Shown: positions 18,894 to 60,333 of the stretch, in pieces
Layout: every line of letters starts with the position of its first letter
Numbering within the stretch: position 1 is the first letter of the stretch
Source of the DNA: Blastococcus aurantiacus
GTDB taxonomy: Bacteria; Actinomycetota; Actinomycetes; Mycobacteriales; Geodermatophilaceae
Length of the DNA: 64,000 bases
Assembly (NCBI RefSeq): GCF_900102425.1
Contig: NZ_FNBT01000003.1
Location: 124,001-188,000, forward strand
Direction: 5' to 3'
Made by a program: the position numbers and the translations under genes
Notes under the pieces: generated by a model
The model's input: the letters and a program-made list of their open reading frames with translations, nothing else
Told to the model about the DNA's origin: nothing
Database searches by the model: none

Positions 18894-18966
18894 GAAGGAC
18901 CCCCTGCCCCCCGCTGCTCGCACGCTCGCACGCTCGCACGCTCGCACCGGGACCCTGCAGGGGGCC
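18894..18966 (+). repeat. Hairpin repeat family, copy 1 (expanded loop)
   Basis: Starts GAAGGACC. Left arm GGACCCCCTGC (18897-18907) pairs with GCAGGGGGCC (18957-18966), leaving the A bulged. The long loop holds four tandem octamers. It lies in the 5' leader of the ACT-domain gene, 22 nt before its start. It is the only copy of five that does not follow a stop codon. See the finding on covariation. Confidence 0.75.
18916..18947 (+). repeat. Tandem octamer GCTCGCAC x4
   Basis: Four perfect copies of GCTCGCAC in a row inside the loop of hairpin repeat copy 1. Other copies of the family carry less than two units, so this looks like slippage expansion within the element. Confidence 0.9.
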
Positions 18967-18988
18967 GGAAGCGATTCTCGGAGGAACC

Positions 18989-19669
18989 GTGTCCTATCTC
19001 CTGCGCCTGGTCATGCCCGACCGTCCCGGCATCCTGGGCGCGGTCGCCACCGCACTCGGCACCGCCGGCATCGACATCGTGTCGTTGGACGTGCTCGAGC
19101 GCGGCACCGGTGTCGCTGTCGACGACGTCGTGGTCGACCTGCCCGCCGACCGGCTGCCCGACAGTCTGATCACCGTGGCGCAGAGCGTCCCCGACGTGCG
19201 CGTGGAATCCCTGCGGCCCTACGCCGGTCCGCTCGACACCCACCGCGAGCTGGAGCTGCTCGACGCGCTGGCGCACGCCGGCGGCAACCCCCCCGATCCC
19301 GCGGTGGCGGTCGACCTGCTGACCGCGGAACTGCCCCGGGTGTTCCACAGCGGGTGGGCGGTGGTGCTCGACTGCGGCGCCGGGGGCTGGTCGGTGCGGT
19401 CGGCGTCCGAGGCGGCTCCGTCGTTCGACGGCGTGGAGCTGCCGTGGATACCGCTGGGCGGTCCGCGACTGCTGCCCAGCGACGAGGACTGGCTGCCCGA
19501 GCGCTGGCGGGAGATGGCCATCGAGATGATGGCGGCCCCCTACGGCGGTGACGCCTGCGTGGTGGTCATGGGCCGCTCGGGCGGCCCGGCGTTCCGCCGC
19601 TCGGAGCTGCTGCGGCTGGTGCACCTGATCGGCATCGCGTCGACCGTCACCCACCTGCCCCCGGCCTGA
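18989..19669 (+). CDS. ACT-domain protein
   Basis: The product is 226 residues. An N-terminal ACT domain (LLRLVMPDRPGILGAVATAL, then GIDIVSLDVLERG; about 1-75) is the amino-acid-sensing type found in GlnD and serine dehydrogenases. The remaining 150 residues are unassigned, although the central part (WAVVLDCGAGGWSVRSAS) looks like an alpha/beta sensor fold. GTG 18989 has GGAGGA 3-4 nt upstream. An ACT protein between gatC and ligA also occurs in M. tuberculosis (Rv3013), so the position is conserved although the role is unknown. Confidence 0.8.
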   Translation: MSYLLRLVMPDRPGILGAVATALGTAGIDIVSLDVLERGTGVAVDDVVVDLPADRLPDSLITVAQSVPDVRVESLRPYAGPLDTHRELELLDALAHAGGNPPDPAVAVDLLTAELPRVFHSGWAVVLDCGAGGWSVRSASEAAPSFDGVELPWIPLGGPRLLPSDEDWLPERWREMAIEMMAAPYGGDACVVVMGRSGGPAFRRSELLRLVHLIGIASTVTHLPPA

Positions 19670-19734
19670 CCCGGCCCTCCACGCCCCGCGGGATCCGGCG
19701 TCGGCACTCGTCGGGGCACCGAAACTGTCGGTGG

Positions 19735-19750
19735 TCGAACATACGATCGA
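19735..19750. promoter_or_regulatory. SOS (LexA)-like box upstream of the HNH gene
   Basis: TCGAAC-ATAC-GATCGA matches the actinobacterial SOS consensus TCGAAC-N4-GTTCGA at 11 of 12 positions. It overlaps the presumed -10 of the HNH gene, the expected place for repression by LexA. 13E12-family genes with LexA sites are known in M. tuberculosis. Confidence 0.65.
19742..19747 (+). promoter_or_regulatory. -10 box of the HNH gene
   Basis: TACGAT ends 6 nt before ATG 19754 and lies inside the SOS-like box; the transcript would be leaderless. Confidence 0.5.
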
Positions 19751-19753
19751 TCC

Positions 19754-21706
19754 ATGACCGATGCCGCTCCTTCGATCGAGGCGCCTCCGGCTGCGCCGGC
19801 GGTCGGGTGGGCGACGGGCCCGCTCGGAGCGGTCCAGGCGGCGGACCGGGAGATCGGCCGCCAGACGGCGCTGCGTGCCCGGGCGGTGGCCGAGTTCGCC
19901 GCGACCAGGCCCGCCTGCGCCGACCGCCCCGCCGGCACTCCCGGCGCGATGAGCGCGGAACGCCGGGCCGCCCGGCCGAGCGTGCTGGCCGACGTCAGCG
20001 AGTGGGCGGCGCAGGAGCTGGTGGTGGCGCTGTCGATCACCTCCACCGCGGCCCAGAACCTGCTGGAGCGCTCGCTGACGCTGGTGCACCGGCTGCCCCG
20101 CACGCTGGCCGCCCTGGAGTCCGGACTGATCCACGTCGGACACCTGTGGTCACTGCTGGAGCGGGTCGCGCCGATCACCGACGCGACGATCCGCACCAGG
20201 GTGGAGGCCGAGGTCATCGACTGGACGGCCGCCCGTCAGGTCACGACCCCGGCCCAGCTGGGTGCGAAGGTGCGTCGGTCGGTGCTGCGCCACGACGCCC
20301 GGGCCGCGGCGCAGCGGCTGGCGGCGGCCGTGCGCGAGCGGGGCATCACCGTCCGGGCCGACCGCCGCGAGGGCATGGCGGTGTTCGACTCGCTGCTGAC
20401 CGTGCCGGAGGCGCACGCCCTGCTGGACGTGCTGGGGCAGTACGCCGACGTGATCGACGGCCCGGAGGACACGCGGACCCGGGGCCAGCGGATGGCCGAC
20501 TGCCTGCTGGACCTCGTGCTGCGCCCGGGCGAGCAGACCGGCCCGCCGGTGCAGGCGCGGCTCACCGTGGTCGCCGGCGTGCGCACCCTGGCCGGCGGCG
20601 ACGAGCCGGGTGAGATCGGCGGCGAGCCCGTACCCGCAGAGCTGGTGCGGGCGCTCGCCCGCGCTCTCGGCCTGCTGCCCCACCCGCCCTCGGAGCCGGT
20701 CGCATCGGCGGCCGCCGGGCTGGAACCCCGTCCGGACGAGCTCCCGGTCGACTCCTGGACCGACGCAGTTTGTGCCGCCGACGAGCGGTGGTGGGCCGAG
20801 GTCGAGGCGCGGGCGCTCCGAGGCGTGTGGGGCGGCGAGGAGGACCCGTCGCTCCAGGAGCTCGAGCGATGGTGGGCCATGCGAGCCGCCGTCCCGGACG
20901 ACGCACCCCCGCCACCGGAGGACGGAGCGGCGGACGACGACTCGACCACCGACACCACCGTTGCCACCGGGGCGTGGGCGCGAGCCGATCGGGCGGTGGA
21001 CGAGGCGAGCGCACTGCTGCTCGAGCTCCAGCGTGCGAGCAGTCGCGCCGGCCGAGCGGTGGCGGACGCCGTGCGCGCCGATGCGGACGACGAAGACGCG
21101 TGGGAGCAGAGCCCGGCCGGCCGGATGACGGCGGCGACGGGCACCGTCGAGGCCCTGGGCCTGCTGACCGATGGGCAGCGCGCGGCGCTCGCGGACCTCC
21201 TCGACGCGACGGCGGGCGGCGGGCTCCTGGATCGGCCCCGCATCGCGGTCGTCGACGAGCTCACCGGCGCGCTGCTCTGCCTCACCGACGCCGACGGACT
21301 GCGCCGGCAAGCGGCGTGCGGGCGGCGCCGGTGCCGTCGAGACCCGGGTAGCTGCGACCACGGTCTGAGCGGCCGTCACAGCGTCGGTCCGCCCGGCCTC
21401 GGTCCGCCCGGCCCCGGCGACGGCTACCGACCCGGTGCTGCGCTCGACCGGCACCTCCGCGCCCGTGACCGGCGCTGCCGCTTCCCCGGCTGCCGTCGGC
21501 CGGTGCCGCTGAGCGGCGAGCTCGACCACGACCGGCCGTGGCCGGAGGGGCCGACCAGCGCCGGCAACCTCGTCGGCTACTGCACCGGGCACCACCGCGG
21601 CAAGCACCAGGCACCCGGCTGGCGGCACCAGCTGGCCGAGGACGGCACGCTCACGATCACCACCCCGACCGGCCTGGTGGCGACCACCACGCCGCCCCCG
21701 TACTGA
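19754..21706 (+). CDS. 13E12 repeat family HNH endonuclease-like protein (DUF222 + HNH)
   Basis: The product is 650 residues. The N-terminal two thirds is the DUF222 domain (SITSTAAQNLLERSLTLVHR, LPRTLAALESGLIHVGHLW). An acidic, low-complexity middle (about 315-420) follows. The C-terminal HNH module has RCRFPGCRRPV, LDHDRPWPEG, then NLVGYCTGHHRGKHQ, with the His, Asn and His residues of the motif intact. These proteins are multicopy in actinobacterial genomes, and their biological job is unclear; they are sometimes linked to mobile repeats. No terminal repeats or target duplication are visible around this copy. Probably SOS-controlled (box at 19735). Confidence 0.88.
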   Translation: MTDAAPSIEAPPAAPAVGWATGPLGAVQAADREIGRQTALRARAVAEFAATRPACADRPAGTPGAMSAERRAARPSVLADVSEWAAQELVVALSITSTAAQNLLERSLTLVHRLPRTLAALESGLIHVGHLWSLLERVAPITDATIRTRVEAEVIDWTAARQVTTPAQLGAKVRRSVLRHDARAAAQRLAAAVRERGITVRADRREGMAVFDSLLTVPEAHALLDVLGQYADVIDGPEDTRTRGQRMADCLLDLVLRPGEQTGPPVQARLTVVAGVRTLAGGDEPGEIGGEPVPAELVRALARALGLLPHPPSEPVASAAAGLEPRPDELPVDSWTDAVCAADERWWAEVEARALRGVWGGEEDPSLQELERWWAMRAAVPDDAPPPPEDGAADDDSTTDTTVATGAWARADRAVDEASALLLELQRASSRAGRAVADAVRADADDEDAWEQSPAGRMTAATGTVEALGLLTDGQRAALADLLDATAGGGLLDRPRIAVVDELTGALLCLTDADGLRRQAACGRRRCRRDPGSCDHGLSGRHSVGPPGLGPPGPGDGYRPGAALDRHLRARDRRCRFPGCRRPVPLSGELDHDRPWPEGPTSAGNLVGYCTGHHRGKHQAPGWRHQLAEDGTLTITTPTGLVATTTPPPY

Positions 21707-21742
21707 TCCAGGACCGGTCGTCGGCCAGATCGTTCGCGGTGC

Positions 21743-22138
21743 TCAGCCGCGCGGGGCCGTCACCTTCTCCGGGGAGATCCGCACCAGCAGGCGCACCTGG
21801 TCCCGGCCGCCGAACCATGGGTACGGGGCGCCGATGTAGCGCTGGGACAGCTCGTCGATGTGCTCACGGGCGCCGTCCTCGGTGACCTCGGTGACGCGGC
21901 CGCGGACCTCGAAGTAGCGGCTCGGGTCGTCGGGGTCGGCCACGTTGAGGGCCACCCGCGGGTCGCGCTCGACGTTGCGGACCTTCTGGTGCCCCCGGAC
22001 GGTGTTGATCAGGACGTCGCGTCCGTCGGTGTCCACCCAGGTCTGCGTCATCTGCGGCGAGCCGTCCGGCATGAGGGTCGAGAGGAAGCAGGGACTGGGA
22101 CGGCGGAGCAGGTCGAGCAGGGCGTCGGGCAGGGACAC
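21743..22138 (-). CDS. PPOX-class (pyridoxamine oxidase-like) F420/FMN-dependent protein
   Basis: The product is 131 residues with a split-barrel flavin/F420-binding fold: RRPSPCFLSTLMPDGSPQMT, VDTDGRDVLINTVRGHQK, VRNVERDPRVALNVADP and DELSQRYIGAPYPW. It belongs to the actinobacterial family usually annotated as PPOX class F420-dependent enzyme. Cofactor choice and substrate are inferred from the family only. GTG 22138 has GGAAGGA about 7 nt upstream; that SD is partly buried in a possible hairpin. Confidence 0.85.
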   Translation of the reverse strand: MSLPDALLDLLRRPSPCFLSTLMPDGSPQMTQTWVDTDGRDVLINTVRGHQKVRNVERDPRVALNVADPDDPSRYFEVRGRVTEVTEDGAREHIDELSQRYIGAPYPWFGGRDQVRLLVRISPEKVTAPRG

Positions 22139-22141
22139 GCG

Positions 22142-22167
22142 GGGGTCCTTCCGGGGGGGTGGACCCC
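22142..22167 (-). promoter_or_regulatory. Possible SD-masking hairpin of the PPOX gene
   Basis: GGGGTCC (22161-22167 read on the minus strand) can pair with GGACCCC (22142-22148), a perfect 7-bp stem that takes up part of the GGAAGGA ribosome site. Whether it forms or matters is unknown; the stretch is very G/C-rich. Confidence 0.3.
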
Positions 22168-22190
22168 GCCCCTACCCGCGACCACCCGTC

Positions 22191-25376
<3,186 letters not shown>

Positions 25377-25380
<4 letters not shown>

Positions 25381-26447
25381 CGGGCGTCCGCCACGGCCGC
25401 CTGGCCGACGACCCGGTCGCCGCGCACGGCGTCCGGCTCGTAGAGGACGGCGGACTGCCCCGGGGCGACGCCGCGCTGGGCCTCGGCGAGGGCGATGCGC
25501 AGCCCGCCGTCAGCGGCGCTCACCTCGCAGGCGACGGGCGTGCCGTGCGCGCGCAGCTGCACCTCGAAGCGGGCCGGCAGCGCGGGCGCCGCACCGGTCC
25601 AGGTCGGGACGCCGGTGCGCACCTCGTCGACGACGGCGAGGTCGGCCGTCCCGATCGTCACGGTGCGGCTGACCGGCTCGATGCCCAGCACGTAGCGGGG
25701 CCGCGAGTCGCCGGCGCTCACGCCCAGCCCCTTCCGCTGGCCCACCGTGAAGCCGTAGGTGCCGTCGTGCTCTCCGACAGTGGCGCCCGTGGTCGCGTCC
25801 ACGACCGGCCCGGGGAGGCTGCCGAGCCGTCGCGCCAGGAAGCCGCGGGTGTCGCCGTCGGGGATGAAGCAGATGTCGTGCGAGTCCGGCTTGGTGGCCA
25901 CGGCGAACCCGCGCTCGGCCGCGATCTCGCGCACCCTGTCCTTGGTCGTGCCGCCGAGCGGGAACCACGCGGCCGCGAGCTGCTCCGGCGTGAGCACACC
26001 CAGCACGTAGGACTGGTCCTTCGCGGAGTCGACCGACCGGCGGAGCTCGCCACCGGCCAGCCGCGCGTGGTGCCCGGTGACGACGGCGTCGAAGCCCAGC
26101 GACAGCGCGCGGTCCAGCACCGCCGAGAACTTGATCTTCTCGTTGCAGCGCAGGCACGGGTTCGGGGTGCGCCCGGCCGCGTACTCGGCCACGAAGTCGT
26201 CGACGACGTCCTCGGTGAACCGGTCGGCCAGGTCCCAGACGTAGAACGGGATGCCCAGCTCGTCGGCAACCCGGCGCGCGTCGTGGGAGTCCTCGACGCT
26301 GCAGCAGCCACGCGAACCGCTGCGCAGCGTCTGGCGGTTCTGGGACAGCGCCAGGTGCACGCCGGTGACGTCGTGCCCGGCGTCCACGGCGAGCGCTGCG
26401 GCCACGGCCGAGTCCACCCCACCGCTCATGGCGGCGAGCACCCTCAT
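25377..26447 (-). CDS. mnmA: tRNA 2-thiouridylase MnmA
   Basis: Thiolates U34 of the tRNAs for Lys, Glu and Gln using sulfur relayed from a cysteine desulfurase. The 356 residues have a PP-loop ATP site [13 protein letters not shown] at 8-20, the catalytic Cys in [12 protein letters not shown] (near 103), and the second Cys in [11 protein letters not shown] (near 200). The C-terminal beta domain with GQRKGLGVS is present. The ATG overlaps the cysteine desulfurase stop (ATGA), which fits direct functional coupling. Confidence 0.96.
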
Positions 26448-29040: not shown

Positions 29041-29056
29041 GCGCCGCCGTCCGTAC

Positions 29057-29072
29057 TTCCCGTTACCGGGAA
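29057..29072. promoter_or_regulatory. Palindrome upstream of the MFS gene (operator candidate)
   Basis: TTCCCG-TTAC-CGGGAA, perfect 6-bp arms around 4 nt, 16 nt before the MFS start codon. No regulator gene is next to it. It could equally be a hairpin in the leader. Confidence 0.45.
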
Positions 29073-29076
29073 AGCA

Positions 29077-29112
29077 TCGAGCGCCGGCCCCCGTGTGGGG
29101 ACCGGCGCTCGA
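29077..29112. terminator. Terminator after etfBA
   Basis: TCGAGCGCCGG-c-CCCC-GTGT-GGGG-a-CCGGCGCTCGA: a 15-bp stem with one internal mismatch and a 4-nt loop, starting 15 nt after the etfA stop codon. No T-run. Confidence 0.8.
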
Positions 29113-29126
29113 GGCGGACGTGCGGC

Positions 29127-30089: not shown

Positions 30090-30125
30090 GAGTAGCTTCT
30101 CCTCTTCCTTCGATCCGGGCCGGGC

Positions 30126-42105: not shown

Positions 42106-42217
42106 GTGATGCACAACCGGGTTCGGCGCCCGGCCGCCCCCGCCACGCCGTGATCGCCCCACGTCACACCCCACAGGTGGGGCGAGCGTGACGAGAGCGT
42201 CGCGACGGGTGACCGGC

Positions 42218-42274
42218 GGCCCCGTCCCGGGTCCCGCCCTGAGCTCGCGAACGGTGGGGAGGACGGGGTCCTTC
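42218..42274 (-). repeat. Hairpin repeat family, copy 2
   Basis: Minus orientation, beginning 1 nt after the glgP stop codon. GAAGGACC, left arm GGACCCCGTCC, right arm GGACGGGGCC, with the same bulged A. The loop has a small inner hairpin around GTTCGCGAGC. The stem bases differ from the other copies but pair perfectly. Confidence 0.75.
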
Positions 42275-42275
42275 C

Positions 42276-44825
42276 TCAGGCCGTCGTGACCACACCGAGC
42301 TCGGCGGGGTCGGCCAGGTGCTCGGAGAACGGCAGGACGCGCACGGTGTAGCCGAAGGCGCCCGTGCGCTCGAGCGGGACGGTGGCCGTGAACCAGTGCC
42401 GCGAGCCCTCGGTCTGGTCGTGCTCCATCGGCACCGTGGTCACCTCGTGCAGACCGTCGGCGTCGTCCACCCGGCCGTAGGCCGCCTGCACCTGCACGTC
42501 GCCCGGCTCCAGCCCCGGCAGCTCCACCTCCGCGCGCAGCGCGAGGGTCGAGCCGATCTCCGGGGTGTCACCGGCGCCGGTGGCCTCCACGTGGGCCACG
42601 CGGACGGTCGACCAGTTGTGCAGCAGGTGCGCCCGCCACGTGGACTCCGAGCGCGCCGGGGCGTAGCCGTCGGCCGACATGACGCGGGCCGACTGCGCCG
42701 CCGGCACGTAGAGCGCCTGCACGTAGTCGCGCACCATGCGCGTGGCCATCACCTTGGGACCGGTCTCGCGCAGCGTGTGCCGCACCATCTCCACCCACCG
42801 GGCCGGCACGCCCTCGGCGTCGCGCTCGTAGAACCGGGGCAGCACCTGGGTGGACAGCAGGTCGTAGATCGCCCGTGCCTCCACCTCGTCGCGTCGGTCG
42901 GCGTCGGCGACGCCGTCGGCCGTGGGGATCGCCCAGCCGTTCTGGCCGTCGAACCACTCGTCCCACCAGCCGTCTCGGATCGAGAGGTTCAGCCCACCGT
43001 TGAGGGCCGACTTCATCCCCGACGTGCCGCACGCCTCCAGCGGCCGCAGCGGGTTGTTCAGCCAGACGTCGCAGCCCCAGTAGAGGTACCGGGCCATGCC
43101 GATGTCGTACCCCGGCAGGAACGCGATGCGGTGCCGGATCTCCGGGTCGTCGGCGAAGGCCACCATCTGCTGGATGAGCTTCTTGCCGCCGTCGTCGGCG
43201 GGGTGGCTCTTGCCCGCGATGACCAGCTGCAGCGGCCGCTCCGGGTCCAGGAGCATCGCCTTGAGCTTGGCCGGGTCGCGCAGCATCAGCGTCAGGCGCT
43301 TGTAGCTGGGCACGCGGCGGGCGAAGCCGATGGTGAGGACGTCGGGGTCGAAGGCGGTGTCGGTCCAGCCGACCTCGGCCTCGGTCGCGCCGCGGGAGAG
43401 CGCGGTCTCGCGGATGCGACGGCGCACCTCCTCGACCAGCCGACCGCGCAGCGTGCGCCGGATCGCCCACAGATCGCCGGCCGCGATGGTGTCGACGCCG
43501 TCGAAGTGCACGGGACCCTCGACCTGGAGCGGGTCCCCCTGGCTGGACGTCTGGGTGCCCATGTCGACCAGCTCGCGCGCGGTCCAGGTCGGGGCGTGCA
43601 CGCCGTTGGTGATCGACCCGATCGGGACGTCGCCCTCGTCGAAGCCTGGCCACAGGTTGTTGAACATGCCCCGGCTCACGTGGCCGTGCAGCTCGCTCAC
43701 GCCGTTGGCGCGCTGGCCCAGCCGCAGGCCCATGTGGGCCATGTTGTACTTCGCCGGGTCCTCCTCGGCGCCCAGCGCGAGCAGGTCGTGCAGCGGGACG
43801 CCGAAGCCGGCGAAGTACCGCTCGATGAGCGCCTTCGGAAAGCGGTCGATCCCGGCCGGCACGGGCGTGTGCGTGGTGAACACCGTGGCCGCGCGGACCG
43901 CCTGCAGCGCCTCGGCGAACGCCAGGCCGTGCGACTCCATCAGCTCGCGGATGCGCTCGAGCCCCAGGAAGCCGGCGTGGCCCTCGTTGGCGTGGAACAC
44001 CTCGGGAGCCGGGACGCCGGTGCGCGCGCAGTAGGCGCGCAGCGCCCGCACCCCGCCGATGCCGAGCAGCATCTCCTGGCGCAGGCGGTGGTCCTCGTCG
44101 CCGCCGTACAGGCGGTCGGTGACGCCCCGCTCGGCCGGCGCGTTCTCCTCGATGTCGCTGTCGAGCAGCAGGAGGGTGACGCGGCCGACCTGCGCCCGCC
44201 AGACGTGCGCGTAGAGGGTGCGACCCTCGGGCAGCGGCACGTTGATGACGACGGCGGTGCCGTCGGGCCCGCGCAGCAGCTTCACCGGCAGGCCGTGCGG
44301 GTCCAGCGAGGGGTAGTGCTCGAGCTGCCAGCCGTCGGCGGACAGTCCCTGCTCGAAGTAGCCGGCGCGGTAGAGCAGCCCGACCCCGATCAGCGGCACC
44401 CCGAGGTCCGAGGCGGCCTTCAGGTGGTCACCGGCGAGGATGCCCAGGCCGCCGGAGTACTGGGGCAGCACCTCGGTGATGCCGAACTCGGCGGAGAAGT
44501 AGGCGATGCTCGCCGGGGCCTCGGCGCCCAGCGACTGGTACCAGCGCGGCGTGGAGAGGTACTCCTCCAGGTCGTCGACGGCGTCCTGCAGGCGGCGCAC
44601 GAACCGACGGTCCTTGGCCAGTGCGGCCAGCCGCTCGGCCGACACCTCGCCCAGGGCCTTGACGGGGTCGCCGCCGCAGCGCTGCCAGAGGCCGGGGTCC
44701 AGGGTCTCGAAGAGGTCCCTGGTCTCGGGGTGCCACGACCAGCGGAGGTTCATCACCAGCTGGGAGAGCGGGAGCAGCGGCTCCGGGAGGGCGGCACGGA
44801 CTGTGAAACGACGGAGGGCTCGCAC
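42276..44825 (-). CDS. glgP: Alpha-glucan phosphorylase (GT35)
   Basis: Releases glucose 1-phosphate from the non-reducing ends of alpha-1,4-glucan. The 849 residues are of the archaeal/actinobacterial type with a DUF3417 N-terminal domain (LMNLRWSWHPETRDLF-like segment, residues 23-40). The PLP-binding lysine lies near residue 604 in EACGTSGMKSALNGG. GTG 44823-44825 has TAGTCT 6 nt upstream (leaderless). Divergent from glgE; the glgP-glgE neighbourhood matches M. tuberculosis Rv1328c-Rv1327c. Confidence 0.95.
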   Translation of the reverse strand: MRALRRFTVRAALPEPLLPLSQLVMNLRWSWHPETRDLFETLDPGLWQRCGGDPVKALGEVSAERLAALAKDRRFVRRLQDAVDDLEEYLSTPRWYQSLGAEAPASIAYFSAEFGITEVLPQYSGGLGILAGDHLKAASDLGVPLIGVGLLYRAGYFEQGLSADGWQLEHYPSLDPHGLPVKLLRGPDGTAVVINVPLPEGRTLYAHVWRAQVGRVTLLLLDSDIEENAPAERGVTDRLYGGDEDHRLRQEMLLGIGGVRALRAYCARTGVPAPEVFHANEGHAGFLGLERIRELMESHGLAFAEALQAVRAATVFTTHTPVPAGIDRFPKALIERYFAGFGVPLHDLLALGAEEDPAKYNMAHMGLRLGQRANGVSELHGHVSRGMFNNLWPGFDEGDVPIGSITNGVHAPTWTARELVDMGTQTSSQGDPLQVEGPVHFDGVDTIAAGDLWAIRRTLRGRLVEEVRRRIRETALSRGATEAEVGWTDTAFDPDVLTIGFARRVPSYKRLTLMLRDPAKLKAMLLDPERPLQLVIAGKSHPADDGGKKLIQQMVAFADDPEIRHRIAFLPGYDIGMARYLYWGCDVWLNNPLRPLEACGTSGMKSALNGGLNLSIRDGWWDEWFDGQNGWAIPTADGVADADRRDEVEARAIYDLLSTQVLPRFYERDAEGVPARWVEMVRHTLRETGPKVMATRMVRDYVQALYVPAAQSARVMSADGYAPARSESTWRAHLLHNWSTVRVAHVEATGAGDTPEIGSTLALRAEVELPGLEPGDVQVQAAYGRVDDADGLHEVTTVPMEHDQTEGSRHWFTATVPLERTGAFGYTVRVLPFSEHLADPAELGVVTTA

Positions 44826-44973: not shown

Positions 44974-47007
<2,034 letters not shown>

Positions 47008-47008
47008 A

Positions 47009-47065
47009 GAAGGACCCCGTGCCCCCCGCCGCTCGCACGCTCGCGACGAGCTCCTGCACGGGGCC
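47009..47065 (+). repeat. Hairpin repeat family, copy 3
   Basis: Begins 1 nt after the glgE stop. GAAGGACC, left arm GGACCCCGTGC (47012-47022), right arm GCACGGGGCC (47056-47065), bulged A; inner hairpin GCTCG-CGA-CGAGC. Lies between glgE and treS. Confidence 0.78.
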
Positions 47066-47110
47066 GCCACCGCCACTCCTATCCGCTACTCCCCGAGGGC
47101 TCCCGCAGCG

Positions 47111-48952
47111 ATGACCGTTCCCGTTCCCGAGTCCGCCCCCGCGCACTCCGCCCTCCCCCCGCCGGGCACCGACCCCGAGTGGTACAAGCGCGCTGTCTTC
47201 TACGAGGTGCTCGTCCGCGGCTTCGCCGACAGCAACTCCGACGGCGTGGGCGACATCCGCGGCATGATCGACAAGCTGGACTACCTGCAGTGGCTCGGCG
47301 TCGACTGCCTGTGGCTGCCGCCGTTCTTCGCCTCACCGCTGCGGGACGGCGGGTACGACGTCAGCGATTACACCGCCGTCCTGCCGGAGTTCGGCGACAT
47401 CGAGGACTTCAAGGAGTTCCTCGACGCCGCCCACTCCCGCGGCATGCGCGTGATCATCGACTTCGTCATGAACCACACCTCGGACCAGCACCCGTGGTTC
47501 CAGGCCAGCCGCAGCGACCCCGAGGGTCCCTACGGCGACTTCTACGTCTGGGCCGACGACGACTCCGGGTACGCCGACGCGCGGATCATCTTCGTCGACA
47601 CCGAGAGCTCGAACTGGACCTTCGACCCGGTCCGCCGCCAGTACTTCTGGCACCGCTTCTTCTCCCACCAGCCCGATCTCAACTTCGAGAACCCGAAGGT
47701 GCGCGAGGCGATCATCGACGCCCTGCGCTTCTGGCTGGACCTGGGCATCGACGGCTTCCGGCTCGACGCCGTGCCCTACCTCTTCGAGGAGGAGGGCACC
47801 AACTGCGAGAACCTGCCGCGCACCCACGAGTTCCTCAAGGAGGTGCGCAAGGTCGTCGACGCCAACTACCCGGACACCGTGCTGCTCTGCGAGGCCAACC
47901 AGTGGCCGGCCGACGTCGTCGAGTACTTCGGCGAGGACGGCGACGAGTGCCAGATGGCCTTCCACTTCCCGGTGATGCCGCGCCTGTTCATGGCCGTGCG
48001 GCGGGAGCAGCGGTTCCCGATCTCGGAGATCATGGCGCAGACGCCGGACATCCCCGACAACTGCCAGTGGGGCGTCTTCCTCCGCAACCACGACGAGCTG
48101 ACCCTCGAGATGGTCACCGACGAGGAACGCGACTACATGTGGGGCGAGTACGCCAAGGACCCCCGCATGAAGGCCAACATCGGCATCCGCCGCCGTCTGG
48201 CGCCGCTGCTGGACAACGACGTCAACACCCTCGAGCTGTTCAACGCGCTGCTGCTCTCCCTGCCGGGGTCGCCGGTCCTCTACTACGGGGACGAGATCGG
48301 CATGGGCGACAACATCTGGCTCGGTGACCGCGACGGCGTCCGCACCCCGATGCAGTGGACGCCGGACCGCAACGGCGGGTTCTCCACCGCCGACCCGCAG
48401 CGCATGTACCTGCCGCTCAACGCCGACCCGGTCTACGGCTACCAGGTCACCAACGTCGAGTCCCAGTTGCGCAACACGAACTCGCTCCTCCAGTGGGTCC
48501 GCCGGATGATCCAGGTCCGCGGCCAGCACCCGACCTTCGGCCTGGGCACGTTCGAGGAGATCGGTTCGCGCAACCCGACGGTGCTGTCGTTCGTGCGCCG
48601 CTTCGGCGACGACATCGTGCTGTGCGTCAACAACCTGTCCCGGTTCCCGCAGCCGGTGGAGCTGGACCTGCGGCAGTTCGAGGGCTACACGCCCGTCGAG
48701 CTGACCGGCCGGGTCGAGTTCCCGCAGATCGGCGTCCTCCCCTACATGCTCACCCTCGCCGGGCACGGCTTCTACTGGTTCGAGCTGTCGAGGTCCGCCG
48801 AGCCGGCTCCCGACGAGCACGAGGACTGGGAGAGCACCGGCAGCAGCTCGGTCGCCGACTCCCTGCTCGCCTCCGGGGTGGTCAGCGCCGCGGAGGAGAC
48901 GCCCGGCGACAACCTCCCGGCACCCGACGACTCCTCCGGAGGATCCCGATGA
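47111..48952 (+). CDS. treS: Trehalose synthase (maltose alpha-D-glucosyltransferase)
   Basis: Interconverts trehalose and maltose; here it feeds maltose to the kinase and GlgE. The 613 residues: after a 25-residue Pro-rich tail, [20 protein letters not shown], the barrel with [12 protein letters not shown], nucleophile Asp219 in [10 protein letters not shown], acid Glu261 in LLCEANQW, then [12 protein letters not shown]. The C-terminal 40 residues are acidic and disordered. It is not fused to maltokinase, unlike in some bacteria. The stop overlaps the pep2 ATG by 4 nt. Confidence 0.96.
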
Positions 48953-50334
48953 GCGCACTGGCCGGTCTGCTCCGCGAGTGGATGCCCACGCAGCGGTGGT
49001 TCGGGAGCAAGGGCCGCGAATGGGCCGACGTCACCGAGGACGGCTTCTTCCTCGACCGCAGCGAGCCCGTCCTGTCCGTGCACCGGGTGCGGGTGACCTA
49101 CACCGACGGCGGCGGGGACACCTACCTCGTGCCGATCTCCTGGCGCGAGCACCAGCTGGACGAGTTGGACTCGGCGTTCATCGGCACGGTCACCGGCGAC
49201 GGCGGGCAGGAGTCGCACGCCTACGACGCCATGCGCGACCGCGACGCGACCACCCCTTGGCTGATCCACCTGGTGAACGCCTCGACCGTCGGCCCCATGC
49301 ACTTCCACCCCGCGGGCGTCGCGTACATCCCCGAGGGCATGCCCGGCGACATCGTCTCGACCGAGCAGAGCAACACCTCGCTGGTCTACGGCTCGGAGGC
49401 GATCTTCAAGCTCTTCCGCCGGCTGGAGCCCGGGCTCAACCCGGACGTGGAGATCCACGACGCGCTGCGCCGCGCGGAGAACCCGCACATCGCGCCGCTG
49501 CTGGGCCACATCGAGATCGACTGGCTCAGTGATGACGGGGACCCGTCGAACGAGCCGGCCACGGTCGCGATGCTGCAGACCTTCGTCCCCAACGCCAGCG
49601 ACGGCTGGCGCCTGGCGACGGCGAGCGTCCGGGACCTGTACGCCGAGGGCGACCTGCACGCCGACGAGGTGGGCGGCGACTTCGCCGCCGACAGCGAGCG
49701 GCTCGGTGCGGCCACGGCGTCGGTGCACAAGGACATGGCCGCCGTGCTGCCCACGGAGCCGGCCGACCGCGACTGGTACGCCACCATGGCCCGGCAGATG
49801 GGCGAGCGCCTCGACGCCGCCATCGAGGTGGTGCCGCAGCTCGCCGAGCACGCCGAGGGCCTGCGCCGGATCTACGCCACGGTCGCCGAGAGCACCGAGC
49901 CCACGGTGCGCCAGCGGGTGCACGGCGACCTGCACCTCGGTCAGGTCCTGCGGACGGCGACCGGGTGGATCGTGCTCGACTTCGAGGGCGAGCCGGCCCG
50001 CCCGCTGGCCTCGCGCCGCGAACTGGACAGCCCCATGCGCGACGTCGCGGGGATGCTGCGCAGCTTCGACTACGCGGCGCGACACATGCTCGTCGAGCAG
50101 CCCGAGGACACCCAGCGGGCCTACCGCGCGCAGGAGTGGGCCGAGCGCAACCGGGCCGCGTTCTGCACCGGTTACTCCGAGGCCAGCGGCCTGGACCCGT
50201 GCGGCGGCTCACCACTCCTTCGGGCGTTCGAGGCCGACAAGGCGGTTTACGAGTGCGTCTACGAGGCACGCAACCGACCGCACTGGCTGATGATCCCGCT
50301 CGACTCGCTGTCCCGGCTCACCAGCCGCGACTGA
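48949..50334 (+). CDS. pep2: Maltokinase
   Basis: ATP-dependent phosphorylation of maltose to maltose 1-phosphate, the GlgE substrate; also named mak. The 461 residues: N-cap domain ([14 protein letters not shown]), N-lobe with the Lys in [16 protein letters not shown], and the C-lobe aminoglycoside-phosphotransferase-like active site [16 protein letters not shown] followed by [14 protein letters not shown] (catalytic Asp and the DFEG metal motif). The ATG overlaps the treS stop (ATGA), which fits TreS-Pep2 acting as one complex. Confidence 0.95.
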
Positions 50335-50394
50335 GAAAGGACCCCTCTGCCCCCCAGCGCTCGCGAGCTCGCACCGGGACCCTGCAGAGGGGCC
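50335..50394 (+). repeat. Hairpin repeat family, copy 4
   Basis: Begins directly after the pep2 stop. GAAAGGACC (one A more than the others), left arm GGACCCCTCTGC (50339-50350), right arm GCAGAGGGGCC (50384-50394), bulged A; inner palindrome GCTCGCGAGC. Lies between pep2 and glgB. Confidence 0.78.
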
Positions 50395-50432
50395 ACAACT
50401 GCTTCAGCACACGGCACCGGAGGAACACGACG

Positions 50433-53237
<2,805 letters not shown>

Positions 53238-53281
53238 CCGGCGGAAGTACGGGTAACGGCTGCCTCGTGGGGGAGATCAGC

Positions 53282-54670: not shown

Positions 54671-54680
54671 CGCAGGGCGC

Positions 54681-55649
54681 TCAGTACAGGGCCATCGTCA
54701 GCGCCCGGCGGGCGGGGCCGACGCGGGGGTCCTGGTCGCCCACGACCGTGAAGAGCTCCACGAGGTGCTTGCGGGCCTGGTCGCGCTCCTCCCCGGCCGT
54801 CCGGCGGATGACGGCGAGCAGCCGCTCGAAGGCGCCCTCGACGTCGCCGGTGCCGAGGAGGAAGTCCGCGGCGCGGGTCTGCGCGGTCACGTCGTCGGGC
54901 GCCGCGTCGGCACGGGCCAGCGCGTCGGGCCCGGCCTCCTCGGCCCGGCGGAACACCTGCACCTGCCGCAGCGCGATCCCGGCGTCGGGGTGGTCGGGCT
55001 CCTCGGCCAGGATCGCCTGGTAGGCGGCCTCGGCGGCCGCGAGGTCACCGCGCTCGAGCGCGGCCTCGGCGGCGTCCAGCCGCGGGTCCTCCAGCTCCGG
55101 TGCGGCCTCGCCGTCGCCCGGCACCGCTCCGCCGGTGGTGGCGCGGACCAGCTCGGCGACGAACTGCCGGGCCTGCTCCTCCGGGATGGCGCCGTTGAAC
55201 TCGGCGATCAGCTGGCCCTGCCACACGGCCTTGACCGCCGGGATGCCCTGCACCCGCAGGCCCTGCGCGAGGGCCGGGTTGGCGTCGACGTCGACCTTGG
55301 CCAGCACCCAGGAGCCGCCGCCCTCCGCAGCCAGCTGCTCCAGGACCGGCGACAGCTGCTTGCAGGGGCCGCACCACTCGGCCCACAGGTCGAGCACGAC
55401 CGGCACCTGGAAGGAGCGGTCGAGCACCTCGGCCTGGAACGTCGCCTCGGTGACGTCGACGACGGCGCTGCCCGGCGCCCCGGCCGGAGCCGCGGCGCTC
55501 GGCGGCGGAGCAGCCTGGGCGCGCGCGGCGGCCTCGGAGCGCGCCTTGACCGCGGCCAGGTCGACGGCGCCGGCCATGGTGGCGGCCATCTGGGCCTGCG
55601 CGCGAGGGTCGGGGCGTCCGGGGCGGGTCGGCTGCATGACCTCGATCAT
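54681..55649 (-). CDS. Thioredoxin-TPR protein (CnoX/Rv1324-like)
   Basis: The product is 322 residues. A 60-residue Ala/Pro-rich N-terminus leads to a thioredoxin domain (about 62-170) with the active site WAEWCGPC (Cys93, Cys96) and cis-Pro VQGIPAVKAV, then a C-terminal helical TPR region (about 185-320; DAAEAALERGDLAAAEAAYQ). This is the architecture of the CnoX chaperedoxin. In M. tuberculosis the orthologue Rv1324 also sits by glgB-glgE-glgP. ATG 55649 is used; ATG 55637 is possible. Tail-to-tail with the zinc peptidase, 10 nt apart. Confidence 0.88.
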   Translation of the reverse strand: MIEVMQPTRPGRPDPRAQAQMAATMAGAVDLAAVKARSEAAARAQAAPPPSAAAPAGAPGSAVVDVTEATFQAEVLDRSFQVPVVLDLWAEWCGPCKQLSPVLEQLAAEGGGSWVLAKVDVDANPALAQGLRVQGIPAVKAVWQGQLIAEFNGAIPEEQARQFVAELVRATTGGAVPGDGEAAPELEDPRLDAAEAALERGDLAAAEAAYQAILAEEPDHPDAGIALRQVQVFRRAEEAGPDALARADAAPDDVTAQTRAADFLLGTGDVEGAFERLLAVIRRTAGEERDQARKHLVELFTVVGDQDPRVGPARRALTMALY

Positions 55650-55685
55650 CCCACCGAGCCGTCGGGCGCGTCGGCCGCGGGTGGA

Positions 55686-58416
55686 TCAGCGGTCGCGGTG
55701 CCCGGTGAAGCTCACCACCTGCTGGAACGTCGGCCGGTTCTGCCAGTCGATGTCGCGGACGCCGATCACGCCCGTGGCCGTGGCCCGGATGTCGTCGATG
55801 TGCTTGTCGTAGGCCAGCTCCGCCACCGATGCGACGCCCTGCTCGGCCAGCACGCGGTCGACGGCCGCCCGCAGGGACGCCCGCAGCTCCCCGGTGCACC
55901 GCGCGTCGTCGCCGCCGCCGCAGTACGAACGCGACCAGTGGTCGTCGGAGCCGGCCAGATCGCGGGCGACGTAGCCGTACCAGGCGACGTTGTTCCAGGC
56001 CGAGCCCAGACCCTGCCGGGGGTGGTCGTCCAGGCGCTGCGGCAGCTCCGTGACGAGGTCGCCGAGCGTGCCGCGCAGCACGTCGTGCGCCACCGATCCC
56101 GCGGTGCCGTCCTCGCCGGTGGCCTCCCACCAGGCGTCGAACAGCGCGATGGCGGCCATCGTAGGCGCCGTCGCGGTCGGCGTCGATCCGGTGTGCGCCG
56201 CGGGTCTGCCAGTCGCGCAGCAGCGCGGTCGCCACGGCCAGCTGCGGATCGTCGCCGATCGCGTCGAGCAGCGCGGGCAGGGTGTAGTCGGCACGGACGT
56301 CGACGGTCGCCGCGTCCTGCACGAGCGCCACCAGGTCCGTCGTCCGCACGCCGCCGTCCGCGACGAGGGCGTCGAGCCGGTCGGACAGCGCCAGGCTCCG
56401 CTGTACCGGGCCCCAGCCCCACACGTCGTCGGCGGCCGCCCAGCCCGGTGCGGGCTTGTTGTTCCACGAGACGAGGTAGCCCGAGGGCGGGTTCACCTGC
56501 TGCGGGTGGTCCTCCGGCGCGAGCCAGCCCTGCCAGCCGAACTGCTCGTCGGCCCAGCGCGGCAGGTGCGGGTCGGTGCCCTCGGCGCGCTCCGGCAGCA
56601 GCCCGGAGGAGTAGAAGGCGATGTCGCGGTCGTCGGCGTAGAACCAGTTGAACGTGTAGTCGATGGCGGACGCTGCCTCCTGGAAGCTGGCCGCGTCGTG
56701 CACGGAGTCCGGGTCGCCGAACCGCTCGAAGCCCACCACCGAGTCGAGCTCCCGGTGGTAGGTGCTGCGCTGCAGGACGATGCCGACCGGCTCGCCGTCC
56801 ACCGTCGTCCGGAGATGGACGATGCCCTGCTCGGTGCGCAGGACGAGGAAGCGCAGCAGCTGCGGCGCACCGGCCCCGCCCAGCGTGGGGAGCGCCAGCT
56901 GCTCGTGGACCCGGCTGTCCATCGCGACGCACCGGTCGCCGTCGAGGTAGCCGGTGGACTCCACGGTGGCGGGTCCGCCACCGGGCTCGCAGAGCCGCAC
57001 CACGACCGTGTCCACGTTGTCGCTGTTCGCGCTGGTGGCCGACCAGGCGTGGTCGACGCCGCGGCCGAGCTGCACCACGAAGTTGGTGCCGGCGAAGGAG
57101 ACACCCCGCGCCTGGATGCCCGGCGCGACGACGGCCTGCTCCGTGAGCAGCTGGGGTGCGTAGTAGCTGGTCTGGGGGCCGAAGACGGCACGCGGGTGCC
57201 CGTCCTCGGTGTGCTCGCCCGAGACCAGGGCGGCATTGCTCAGGCCGTCGGCCATCGAGCCGAGGTCCAGCGTGCCGAACGGCCCGGTGACCTCCTGCGG
57301 CGGAGCGGCCGGCAGGCCGGCGAGCGGGTCCGGGAGCGCTCCCCCGACCGCGGAGCCCGAGCCGGGCGCCGTCGGGCCGTCGAGGTCGGGCAGGGCGACA
57401 CCGGGCAGGGACGGGTCCACCGGGGTGCCGCCACCGTTCGGGGTCGGCACGGACGACGTCGTCGGCGCCTGCGGGTCGTCGGCCGAGCGCAGGTCGTCGA
57501 AGACGCGGCGCCCCTCCTCCGGGCCGAAGCGCTGCTCGAGCTGCTGGAGCCACCGCGCGTTGGCGTACTCGGCGCCGCCGCCCTTGCCGAAGATGCCACC
57601 GACGAGCGAGGCGATGTAGACGACGTCCGCGCGGTCCCACGGCTCCGGCACCTTCTGCAGCGCGACGTACTCGACCGGGCAGTCGGCGCCCACCACCAGA
57701 CCGGGGCACAGCGCCTGCTGCCCGGCGTTGATGCCTTCGACGTAGGCGTCGGTGGCGCGCAGCAGCGCCTGGCCCTCGTCGCCGAAGCGTGCGGCGACGT
57801 CCTCGACCTGCGCCTGCGCCTCCTCCTCGGTGTAGAAGGCGGTGCGGAGCTGCTCCTGGTCCATGGCGATGTTCGCGGCACTCGGGCCGAGGAACTCCGA
57901 GGCACGGGCCGCCCCGACGTGGCGGAGGACGTCCATGAGGAACATGCGGTCCTGCACGCCCACGTAGCCCGACGCCCAGGCGGCCAGCTCCCGGGTCTCG
58001 GCCTCGATGTAGGGGACGCCGAACGAGTCCCTTCGGATCACCACGCCGTCCCGGGGGCGGTCGATGCGGACCGCGTCGGCATCGGAGAGCGTGAGCGGGG
58101 CGTCCTTGTAGTACTCGCCCAGCGACTCCTCGGTGAGCGAGCCGAGGTCGGCGGCGTTGAGCGCGTCGTACATCTCCAGCTGGTCGGAGAAGTTGACCGG
58201 CGCGTTCCGGCCGTCGACTGCCTGGCGTCCCAGCGGGTCGCCGAGCACCGAGCCGACCGCTCCGGGGAGCGTCATCCCACCGGACTGGCCCGGCGGCAGG
58301 ATGTTCCGCACCCCGCCGTACTCCTCGGCCGTCTCCTCCGTGGCCTGGGCGGCGGTGGGGAGGACGAGGCCGGTCAAGGCGACCGCTCCTGCCACGAGCA
58401 CGGTTCCGAGCCGCAC
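55686..58416 (-). pseudogene. Penicillin acylase family (Ntn hydrolase), single frameshift
   Basis: The reading frame is broken near 56156. From GTG 58416 the frame reads a signal peptide (LPTAAQA cleavage), then acylase segments VIRRDSFGVPYIEAET, VQDRMFLMDVLRHVGAARAS, GLSNAALVSGEHTEDG (likely autocatalytic Ser) and WSATSANSDNVDTV, up to RIDADRDGAYD. The conserved end (AAIALFDAWWEATGEDG to FTGHRDR, stop at 55686) is in another frame. Removing one G from GATGGCC restores a smooth YDAAIALFD and a 909-residue protein. So it is a single-base insertion: either a recent mutation that truncates the beta chain after about residue 752 or a sequencing error. Homologues cleave acyl-homoserine lactones or beta-lactam side chains; the substrate is unknown. 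Confidence 0.82.
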
Positions 58417-58494
58417 GACGAACCTCCGGGTCCGGGAGTGTTGTCGTGGGCAACGACCCGGTCGCCGGTGGGTTACGTCACAGTGCGGCGCCGG

Positions 58495-58878
58495 TCAGCG
58501 CTCGGCCCAGACGCCCAGCTGGTTGCCGCTGGGGTCGGCGAAGTGGAAGCGGCGACCGCCCGGGAACGCGTACGGGCCCTCGGTCACCCGGCCCCCGGCC
58601 GCCTCGACGGCGCCGAGGGTCCGGTCCAGGTCGGCGGAGAAGAGCAGGACCAGGGGCCCACCGGGGCTGGGCGGCTGCTCGTCGAGCCGGAGGCCGCCGA
58701 CCTCGGGCCCTCCCTCCGCGCCCCGGATGCCGGAGTACGCCGGCCCGTAGTCGGTGAACCCCCAGCCGAAGGCGTCGGCGTAGAAGCGCTTCGCCGCGGC
58801 GAGGTCGGTGACGGTGAGCTCGACGTAGTCGATGGTGTGGTGCCTGGCACCTGTCATGGCGTCGGTCATGGCGCGCAT
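58495..58878 (-). CDS. VOC (glyoxalase-like) family protein
   Basis: The product is 127 residues from ATG 58878; ATGs at 58869 and 58857 are equally possible. Two beta-alpha-beta modules: YVELTVTDLAAAKRFYADAFG with GWGFTDYGPAYSG, and VLLFSADLDRTLGAVEAAGG with FHFADPSGNQLGVW, typical of bleomycin-resistance/glyoxalase-like proteins. Metal ligands and substrate cannot be assigned. It follows the MarR gene by 17 nt and is probably co-transcribed. Confidence 0.87.
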   Translation of the reverse strand: MRAMTDAMTGARHHTIDYVELTVTDLAAAKRFYADAFGWGFTDYGPAYSGIRGAEGGPEVGGLRLDEQPPSPGGPLVLLFSADLDRTLGAVEAAGGRVTEGPYAFPGGRRFHFADPSGNQLGVWAER

Positions 58879-58895
58879 GGTGCCGGGAGGGTCTG

Positions 58896-59411
58896 TCAGG
58901 AATCGGCGCCCGACACGTCGCCCGCGCCCAGCCGGACGCGGCGGAGCACCTCGAAGAGGGTGCCGAGGTCGTCGTCCGCCAGGTCGCCGAGGCCGAAGTC
59001 CAGCTCCGTGAGGGCACGCGTCCCGAGTTCGACCACCGCCCGCCCGGCCCCGGTGATGCCGGCGAGCACGCCGCGCCCGTCGGCCGGGTTCGGACGACGG
59101 TCGACGTAGCCGGCCACGACGAGCCGGTCGATCGCGTTGGTGACGCTGGTCGGGTGCACCATCAGCCGGCTCCCGATCACCTTGAGCGGCAACTCCCCGG
59201 TGCGGCTGAAGGTGAGCAGCACCAGCACCTCGTACCGAGCGAAGGTCAGCTCGTGCGGCCGGAGCACCTCGTCGAAGCGGGCCAGCAGGATCTGCTGCAC
59301 CCGGAACACCGACGTCGCCGCCCGCATCGCCGCCGCCGGCCCGAAGCGCTCCTCCCAGGTCTGCCCGGCGCGCTCGATCGGATCGAAGGGCAACCCCAGC
59401 GGCCGGACCAT
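58896..59411 (-). CDS. MarR-family transcriptional regulator
   Basis: The product is 171 residues with a winged helix-turn-helix: LTFARYEVLVLLTFSRTGEL, LKVIGSRLMVHPTSVTNAID (recognition helix), RLVVAGYVDRRPNPADGRG (wing). Likely a dimeric repressor of itself and the VOC gene downstream. ATG 59409-59411 is chosen because TAGCGT lies exactly 7 nt upstream (leaderless); the longer frame reads into poor, Arg/Pro-rich sequence. The ligand is unknown. Confidence 0.9.
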   Translation of the reverse strand: MVRPLGLPFDPIERAGQTWEERFGPAAAMRAATSVFRVQQILLARFDEVLRPHELTFARYEVLVLLTFSRTGELPLKVIGSRLMVHPTSVTNAIDRLVVAGYVDRRPNPADGRGVLAGITGAGRAVVELGTRALTELDFGLGDLADDDLGTLFEVLRRVRLGAGDVSGADS

Positions 59412-59418
59412 GCCCGGG

Positions 59419-59424
59419 ACGCTA
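59419..59424 (-). promoter_or_regulatory. -10 box of the MarR gene (leaderless)
   Basis: TAGCGT on the minus strand ends 7 nt before ATG 59411, identical to the glgE arrangement. Confidence 0.55.
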
Positions 59425-59569
59425 CCCGTGGCGGCCCGGCGGGCTGTCGCCGATCCGGCTGTGACCGGGGACACCCGACCCCTGTTATCCCAGTGCTGGC
59501 GCGACATGTCGACCCGTCGACCTGTCGATCCGGCGGCCGCCGGGTTGAAGCCCGGCACGGCGGTTCGTA

Positions 59570-59745
59570 CGGTGGAGGAGCCGGCCGGGTGGTCGCCGCC
59601 CGACGAGGGTGGCCCCGGCCCCGGTACCGCCGCAGCCCGGAGTGGAGCCCCACGAGGCCCCCCGGAGCGCGAGCCGCCCAGCACACCCGACGAACCAGCT
59701 CAGGTGTGCTGCGCCGTGCCCGCGACCAGGCTGCGACGGGCGAAC
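59570..59745 (+). ncRNA. Structured leader of the NlpC/P60 gene, possible c-di-AMP (ydaO) riboswitch
   Basis: The 351-nt gap 59412-59762 holds no gene. Its second half is G/C-rich with several stems (for example GCCGCCCGACGAGGGTGGC and GCACACC...GGTGTGC) and a GACGAACCAGCTCAGG stretch that recalls the 3' half of the ydaO/c-di-AMP riboswitch (CCGAACC..CAGCTCACCT). Such riboswitches commonly precede NlpC/P60 cell-wall hydrolases in actinobacteria. I could not run a covariance model; the match is by eye and partial. The first part (59425-59569) shows only the MarR promoter. Confidence 0.35.
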
Positions 59746-59762
59746 GGAAGGAGAGCCACCGC

Positions 59763-60275
59763 ATGGTGACCACTCGCCCGAACAGCACCTCCGCCCACGT
59801 CGTCCGCCGCACCGGCGCCGGCCTGCTCGCCGGGGCCGCAGCCTCGCTGGGCCTCTTCCTCACACCCGCCACCGCGGTCGCCGCCGAGCCCGCGGCCGCA
59901 CCCGTCGCCGCGCAGGCCCCGGCGCCCGCGCCGGCCCAGGTCGCCGTCGACACCGCCCGCGCACAGGTCGGGAAGGCCTACCAGTACGGCGGCAACGGCC
60001 CCGACAGCTTCGACTGCTCGGGACTCACCTCCTACGCCTACCGGGCCGCGGGCATCGAGCTGCCGCGCCGGAGCGCCGACCAGGCCACCGTCGGCGTCCC
60101 CGTCGCGAGCGCCGACCTGCAGCCCGGCGACCTGGTCTTCTACTACGAGCCGATCAGCCACGTCGGCATCTACGTCGGCGACGGCGTGATCGCGCACGCG
60201 GCGACGGAGTCCACCGGCGTGGAGTACCACAGCGTGATCATGGAGGGGTACAACACCGCGCGCCGGATCGTGTGA
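59763..60275 (+). CDS. Secreted NlpC/P60 peptidoglycan hydrolase
   Basis: The product is 170 residues. A Sec signal peptide (ATAVAA cleavage near 41) and an Ala/Pro linker are followed by a minimal NlpC/P60 domain: ARAQVGKAYQYGGNGPDSF then Cys85 in DCSGLTSYAY, His133 in SHVGIYVG and His145 in AHAATE form the Cys-His-His triad. It cuts peptide stems of peptidoglycan. ATG 59763 has GGAGAG about 9 nt upstream. The 5' leader is long and structured (possible riboswitch). Confidence 0.93.
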   Translation: MVTTRPNSTSAHVVRRTGAGLLAGAAASLGLFLTPATAVAAEPAAAPVAAQAPAPAPAQVAVDTARAQVGKAYQYGGNGPDSFDCSGLTSYAYRAAGIELPRRSADQATVGVPVASADLQPGDLVFYYEPISHVGIYVGDGVIAHAATESTGVEYHSVIMEGYNTARRIV

Positions 60276-60276
60276 T

Positions 60277-60333
60277 GAAGGACCCGGTCCTCCTCACCGC
60301 TCGCACGCTCGCGGCGAGCCTCGGGACCGGGCC
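60277..60333 (+). repeat. Hairpin repeat family, copy 5
   Basis: Begins 1 nt after the NlpC/P60 stop codon. GAAGGACC, left arm GGACCCGGTCC (60280-60290), right arm GGACCGGGCC (60324-60333), bulged A; inner hairpin GCTCG-CGG-CGAGC. The stem is a fifth distinct but self-complementary sequence. It also ends 16 nt before the convergent oxidoreductase gene stop. Confidence 0.78.

Follow-up and report, generated by a model that had tools for sequence, protein, structure and literature searches.

We analysed a 64,000-nucleotide (nt) stretch of the Blastococcus aurantiacus genome (contig NZ_FNBT01000003.1, positions 124,001 to 188,000; hereafter the window), in which an earlier reading, the original prediction, had marked five intergenic hairpins with compensatory stem changes. 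The evidence makes it probable that these non-coding elements belong to a family of short (about 61 nt) mobile hairpins that resemble repetitive extragenic palindromic (REP) elements and miniature inverted-repeat transposable elements (MITEs), are characteristic of the Geodermatophilaceae and are mobilized in trans by an enzyme recognizing the folded strand. Eight genome copies of equal length, including copy 4 of the window, served to build a covariance model, R1. The five copies, located where they had been predicted, matched R1 at 54–84 bits (E 1e-10 to 1e-17) and are the sole strong matches in the window, where 11 matches were obtained at E≤1 and the best after these five scored 24.9 bits. 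The model search of the own and related genomes that had been proposed reported 131 matches in the own genome, at least 127 of them at E<1e-4, and matches in 102 of the 112 family genomes; 150 of 2,992 first-look candidates were scored in the own genome and about 47 in each family genome, so all these copy numbers are lower bounds. For actinobacteria, this is a large and apparently undescribed repeat family with sequence evidence of recent movement, and it makes testable how tiny palindromes spread with no visible enzyme.

Each unit has the layout G-NN-GAAGGACC-arm...arm-GGCC and folds into an outer and an inner stem. The 5′ half consists of G-NN-GAA-GG(A), a left arm of 8–9, a C-rich side and the left inner stem, leading to a fixed apical loop of 10 nt, TCGCANGCTC, after which the right inner stem, a C-rich side, the right arm and CC follow; the unpaired ends of the core are GAA and G, and a further G recurs three bases upstream of the GAAGGACC head. 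This G, the fixed loop and the inner stem with its common A.C mismatch were absent from the original prediction. As that prediction held, the outer stem of every window copy is perfectly paired between its two arms, with the A of GGACC bulged out. Among 125 distinct own-genome copies, the bulged base is A in 117, and one pair of the inner stem is an A.C mismatch in 85.

Pairing over the same 125 copies was found in 95.7% of outer-stem and 83.3% of inner-stem cells. Paired cells amounted to 90.6% overall, compared with 74.7% in shuffles, and double-changed cells to 339, compared with 106. The covariation score was 0.360, against 0.110 for shuffled and 0.045–0.089 for slid-partner controls. Since the alignment was fitted to the model and includes the sequences from which the model was built, the percentages are biased towards structure; despite this, the slid and shuffled controls remain far below the real covariation. 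At one orthologous gap, the arms are changed on both sides, being CCCTCTGC/GCAGAGGG in L057 and CTCTCTGC/GCAGAGAG in L059 and L096. The proposal that the fold and not the sequence is conserved therefore stands for the arms and fails for the head, loop and tail, the sequences of which are strongly conserved in these copies. Placement and tail statistics were taken from 128 of the 131 own-genome matches, the three below 31 bits being omitted. In 28 of the 128, GGCC is followed by an extension beginning TTCCA (consensus GTTCCAGCACGTCACC); such tail-extended copies, for example L146 and L177, represent a long form of the element.

The mismatches are unevenly distributed between the strands. On the gene-sense strand of the 125 distinct copies, the non-Watson–Crick cells comprised 149 A.C, 20 G.U and 66 others. 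When pairs with at least 20 A.C were omitted, A.C still exceeded G.U in the own copies (39 vs 17, p 0.002) and, with the same pairs omitted, in 64 family-wide copies (32 vs 16, p 0.015); the p values are optimistic owing to the common descent of the copies, and the direction agrees between the two sets. Because a sense-strand A.C becomes G.T or G.U on the opposite strand, that strand, which complements the upstream mRNA, folds better and is probably the one that does fold.

From sequence comparison, we infer that the hairpin family has been mobile, recently in at least one relative, and that it inserts into gene-end gaps and into the loop region of fellow copies. In the relative G057, the 57-nt cores of four copies (L304, L305, L311 and L313) are 100% identical, with flanks just 29–50% alike, and a second identical pair (L297 and L310) has flanks 28–36% alike. 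Across species, the gap after glgE contains a sense copy, an antisense copy or none, and the gaps after the maltokinase and phosphorylase genes hold a copy in only some species; at two gaps compared, most Geodermatophilaceae orthologues are without a copy. The pairing of filled with empty sites used 60 of the 64 matches in named relatives and was read from pairs passing the filters, with no more than three for each site. Together, the identical copies at unrelated sites, the presence or absence at orthologous sites and the nested insertions support the mobile REP/MITE-like option offered by the original prediction. The nested same-orientation pattern was counted 97 times in G057, 69 in G059 and 61 in G039, compared with 2, 4 and 0 for a reversed control; these counts are inflated by overlapping matches counted repeatedly at one site, and the background consists of conserved protein-coding matches, commonly one to three per genome. 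The nested opposite-orientation pattern gave 16 cases in G057 against 0 in the control, not all of which are nested elements.

Among 40 nested loci that were retrieved, the point of entry of the inner copy is mostly preceded by CACCG, CTCG or CCCCCC. Host sequence resumes with GCGG(C/T)GGG in nine of these loci, where by eye approximately the loop region is missing, and the clear nested cases have lost roughly 10–12 nt of the host loop, as judged by eye against the consensus. Nested copies record the order of arrival. Five loci (L260, L261, L289, L290 and L291) carry the same or a closely similar nested composite within outer host arms that differ but for the most part pair; L260 and L289 seem to be the same orthologous site. 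Nested composites may move as units, or their arms may have been re-matched.

To locate the copies relative to genes, gene ends were taken from a codon-usage gene finder made for this analysis, which missed some genes. The original prediction placed four of the five window copies 0–3 nt past a stop codon in gene orientation; we found these four at 0–1 nt, copy 1 being the exception. The distance count that it had proposed gave 92 of 128 own-genome heads at 0–10 nt past a sense stop (96 with a looser gene filter). Among the 107 testable copies, which have a sense stop no more than 1000 nt upstream, these 92 compare with 30.2 expected by uniform placement within the same gaps; where the gap offered 40 nt or more (74 gaps), 60 copies lay at 0–10 nt, compared with 9.1 expected. 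Heads were exactly 4 nt past the stop in 45 cases, compared with 5.3 expected. TGA-N-GAA-GG is the most frequent spacing (45 heads lie 4 nt past a TGA, the GAA not being intact in all), and after TAG stops the most frequent distance is 5 nt (7 of 15); therefore, the G of the stop lies four bases upstream of AAGGACC in both.

A G at this position was present in 30 of 40 nested copies, 24 of 32 own copies away from stops and 69 of 86 own copies at stops, the 118 own copies so classed being matches of at least 40 bits with the head word found. A loose preference for G is possible on these counts. A fixed DNA target word such as CTGA was rejected: C precedes the stop in 75 of 112 element-adjacent gene ends and 190 of 315 others, and the use of TGA/TAG/TAA is near background (83/20/9 element-adjacent, 249/54/12 others). 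For TGA stops at 0–10 nt, the preceding base is C in 59 of 69, a raw count without a matched TGA-only background. In some copies, the head of the element itself completes the stop codon (TGAAGG, TAGAAGG or TAAGG), and one copy (L116, G000:C13:545127-545189) falls within the 3′ end of an open reading frame, in frame with it, and would be translated to a TAG just beyond the copy.

The placement at stops would also fit a host device acting at RNA 3′ ends, in which the hairpin stabilizes the mRNA end, aids Rho-dependent or hairpin-only termination, or slows the terminating ribosome, the copies having spread but been kept for this purpose. We regard this as a serious alternative, if somewhat less than an even prospect. 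In addition to the 92 of 107 testable heads near a stop and the stops completed by the head, the sense-strand RNA folds with a median of −30.1 kcal/mol; the hairpins may affect the termination of translation or decay at the mRNA 3′ end. PMC12306157 offers a comparable case: of 4,072 E. coli REPs, 446 lie no more than 15 nt from a stop, and such REPs are reported to stall ribosomes, their translational effect being cited there. Against such a device, no TTTT follows any of the 128 copies, copies come and go between species, most orthologues at the two compared gaps are without one, and the mismatches speak for folding of the mRNA-complementary strand. In addition, 14 of 128 copies abut an opposite-strand stop by their tail, six of which also have a sense stop at their head. 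Two window copies (3 and 4) lie within the glgE-treS-mak-glgB cluster, which we take to be cotranscribed; TreS was named from its domains and its place in the cluster. A terminator role is disfavoured by this position, the lack of a T tract and the patchy conservation. No U-tract occurs in any of the five window copies, in agreement with the original prediction, and its view that they are not ordinary intrinsic terminators also holds for the 128 own-genome tails, in which TTTT is absent and the mean T content is 0.151.

We return to mobile hairpins mobilized in trans. The enzyme so supplied would recognize one folded strand with its two stems, bulged base and fixed loop, and this recognition would keep the arms complementary. 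Action at the DNA level on a folded strand fits both orientations, with sense in excess in the raw counts, as well as the strand bias and the conservation of bulge, loop and head. Such an enzyme alone does not explain the sharp spacing from stop codons, for which targeting or strong selection is needed: the stop-adjacent copies persist either through least damage at that place or through directed insertion, and the two are not yet separable. A more specific form of the proposal, which we consider doubtful, is that the hairpins lack a dedicated transposase of any known type, are steered to stop codons and hairpin loops, replace about a dozen bases and have their complementary single strand moved or recognized, by a route distinct from HUH/Y1 mobilization of REPs. 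If true, stop-codon targeting would tie transposition to translation or gene ends. The copies are located where the expression of many genes could be altered.

Several points weigh against mobilization of this kind. No mobilizing gene was found among the Y1, Y2 and reverse transcriptase domains searched in the family genomes, and no target-site duplication was visible in the filled and empty pairs passing the comparison filters. Own-genome copies are old, the best ungapped equal-length identity being 0.966, so movement there is not recent. Part of the A.C excess is inherited from the consensus, so the copies are not independent. In the active G057, only 10 of the 30 top copies passed the strict sense-stop test; about ten others look nested by eye. 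Tolerance in 3′ gaps alone does not account for the 4-nt peak after TGA. Excision may have produced some of the "empty" sites, as exemplified by L034 (TGAGGACCGGCC), and the bases apparently replaced at stop-codon sites are for this reason not safely readable; the bare hairpin foot GGACCGGCC at L034 is consistent with the loss of a hairpin.

The domain searches gave the following results. The Y1 transposase of the REP-associated tyrosine transposase (RAYT) type (PF01797) was detected in none of the 112 family genomes and in 5 of 14 control genomes. The Y2 transposase (PF04986) was detected in 1 of 108 family genomes and in 0 of 14 controls, so this search had no positive control, and the reverse transcriptase (PF00078) in 47 of 108, with none in the own genome or the nested-rich G057. 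Neither the Y2 nor the reverse transcriptase domain searched follows the distribution of the element. Y2/IS91-type mobilization was rejected on its single occurrence (a search without a positive control), a reverse-transcriptase route on the absence of PF00078 from the own genome and 60 others of the 108, and carriage by plasmid or phage after a blastn search with one copy returned no match.

Among the remaining explanations, compensatory arm changes could arise without selection on the fold by DNA palindrome correction (template switching during replication). The five composites with the same or similar nested inner parts and differing outer arms that mostly pair are in keeping with this process; the bulged A and the inner A.C mismatch should be erased by it, yet both persist (117 and 85 of 125), and we consider it unlikely. 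The hairpins might instead be REP elements whose RAYT (Y1) transposase was since lost throughout the family: they are palindromic, intergenic and present in more than 100 copies, with an unpaired head and an imperfect stem like REPs. This is quite improbable given the recently identical copies in G057, where as in all 112 genomes Y1 is absent, and the head GAAG in place of the GT(A/G)G given in PMC2817692. Least credible is insertion at the RNA level, in which the RNA of the hairpin would be inserted into mRNA at the two favoured places, stop codons and hairpin loops, and then copied back into DNA, for although sense copies are in excess in raw counts, antisense nested and antisense stop-adjacent copies exist and the own genome, G057 and 59 others of the 108 are without a reverse transcriptase domain.

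The hairpin family appears, from the genomes compared, to be characteristic of Geodermatophilaceae. By its GlgE protein (90% identity), the own genome came nearest to Blastococcus among the named records. Among 80 named-relative loci, 64 matches fell in 28, all of which carry the name of Geodermatophilaceae or of one of its genera in their titles; no match came from the outgroup loci, which include Pseudonocardia and Frankia. At the order level, 41 of 249 genomes matched, 38 of them within the family; the other three (G164, G173 and G248) had 1–2 matches each. Their strong copies (L243, L244, L246, L249 and L251) lie in other families of the order, L244 near a contig end, and may represent contamination or transfer. 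Some near-complete genomes of the same genus have few copies: G001 none, G016 two and G006 seven (four strong). These element-poor sister species are natural controls for tracing the mobilizing gene. Nine genomes of three other genera (g5, g6 and g7), several of them incomplete, gave no matches. Two glgE loci titled Bacillus sp. AZ43 (L039) and Spirochaetaceae metagenome-assembled genome (L093) are actinobacterial-looking, and these labels look wrong.

The original prediction knew of no described family, and none was found: Rfam gave no match at gathering over the window and none at E≤1 over 46950–50450 (3.5 kb, two copies), so a known Rfam family was rejected, and a weak literature search found no prior description in Geodermatophilaceae, so that "undescribed" is provisional. 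In kind, the hairpins are like REPs, CGTC repeats, Nostoc small dispersed repeats (SDRs) and yeast GC clusters, and they fail the defining tests of the first two. Nostoc SDRs, described by Elhai in 2008, are reportedly 21–27 nt long, with compensatory changes and nesting in their own copies; no enzyme or stop-codon preference is known for them. Nesting and compensatory stems are common to both, whereas our family is about 61 nt long and from a different phylum. Mycobacterial repeated terminators (TRIT) are a repeated hairpin family at actinobacterial gene ends. Compared with these, the present hairpins have no U-rich tail and show evidence of movement and nesting. TRIT is mentioned in PMC3526491. 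Searches by term within two repeat surveys likewise gave no description of the hairpin family.

REPs and REPINs with a RAYT share with our family a short, GC-rich imperfect palindrome, high copy number, extragenic location, an unpaired head and complementary changes that are kept (PMC2817692 and PMC3116915), and some E. coli REPs are likewise near stop codons (PMC12306157). The trait of a high-copy intergenic imperfect palindrome is present here (at least 127 copies, mostly in gaps). REPs are defined by a GT(A/G)G head before the palindrome in PMC2817692; in contrast, our elements have the head GAAG, two stems and a fixed 10-nt loop, nest in their own loops, lack Y1 in 112 genomes and, in 92 of 128 own copies, are no more than 10 nt from a stop. 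Identity as RAYT-type REPs was accordingly rejected on the Y1 result and the GAAGGACC head. Sequence comparison suggests the MITE trait of a short non-autonomous mobile repeat, with no target-site duplication in the compared filled and empty pairs and no cognate among the three domains searched. CGTC-tagged REPs are also palindromic and are described as having no dedicated transposase (PMC3733652). They differ in carrying the CGTC tag at one end, and the text searched is without the word Actinobacteria; our elements end in unpaired GAA and G and have CGTC only within the tail extension begun by 28 of 128 copies, so this class was rejected. Yeast mitochondrial GC clusters resemble our family as mobile hairpins with unsettled machinery, cluster mergers and footprints at some empty sites, and differ in being mitochondrial and in having stems low in diversity that do not covary (PMC4478555).

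The positions and neighbours of the five window copies are given in Table 1.

Table 1. Hairpin copies in the window, with R1 scores and gene context
Copy	Position	Strand	Score (bits)	Context
1	18892..18968	+	54.4	Divergent gap between gatC (minus) and an ACT-domain gene; no stop codon before it
2	42216..42276	-	60.7	Head 1 nt past TGA of a glycogen phosphorylase-type gene (42276-44756, minus)
3	47007..47067	+	61.8	Head 1 nt past glgE TGA, upstream of treS
4	50334..50396	+	83.9	Immediately past maltokinase TGA, upstream of glgB
5	60275..60335	+	60.7	Head 1 nt past TGA of an NlpC/P60 gene; convergent gene next

The gap of copy 4 is also occupied, with arms matching or doubly changed, in L048, L061 and L080 (Geodermatophilus), L057 and L096 (Modestobacter) and L059 (family-level title). 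At the site of copy 2, ten different bases follow the stop in L041, and nothing is inserted in L031 and L032, where three flanking bases are absent too. A plain GC-rich palindrome at 263–302 of the window, GAAGGGCCCCGCTGCC...GCAGCGGGGCCC, scored 24.9 bits on both strands and is apparently an unrelated hairpin, or else a degraded remnant. Copy 1 lies 20 nt upstream of the start of the ACT-domain gene, and its loop (18916–18945) is lengthened by tandem GCTCGCAC units, possibly as a product of replication slippage.
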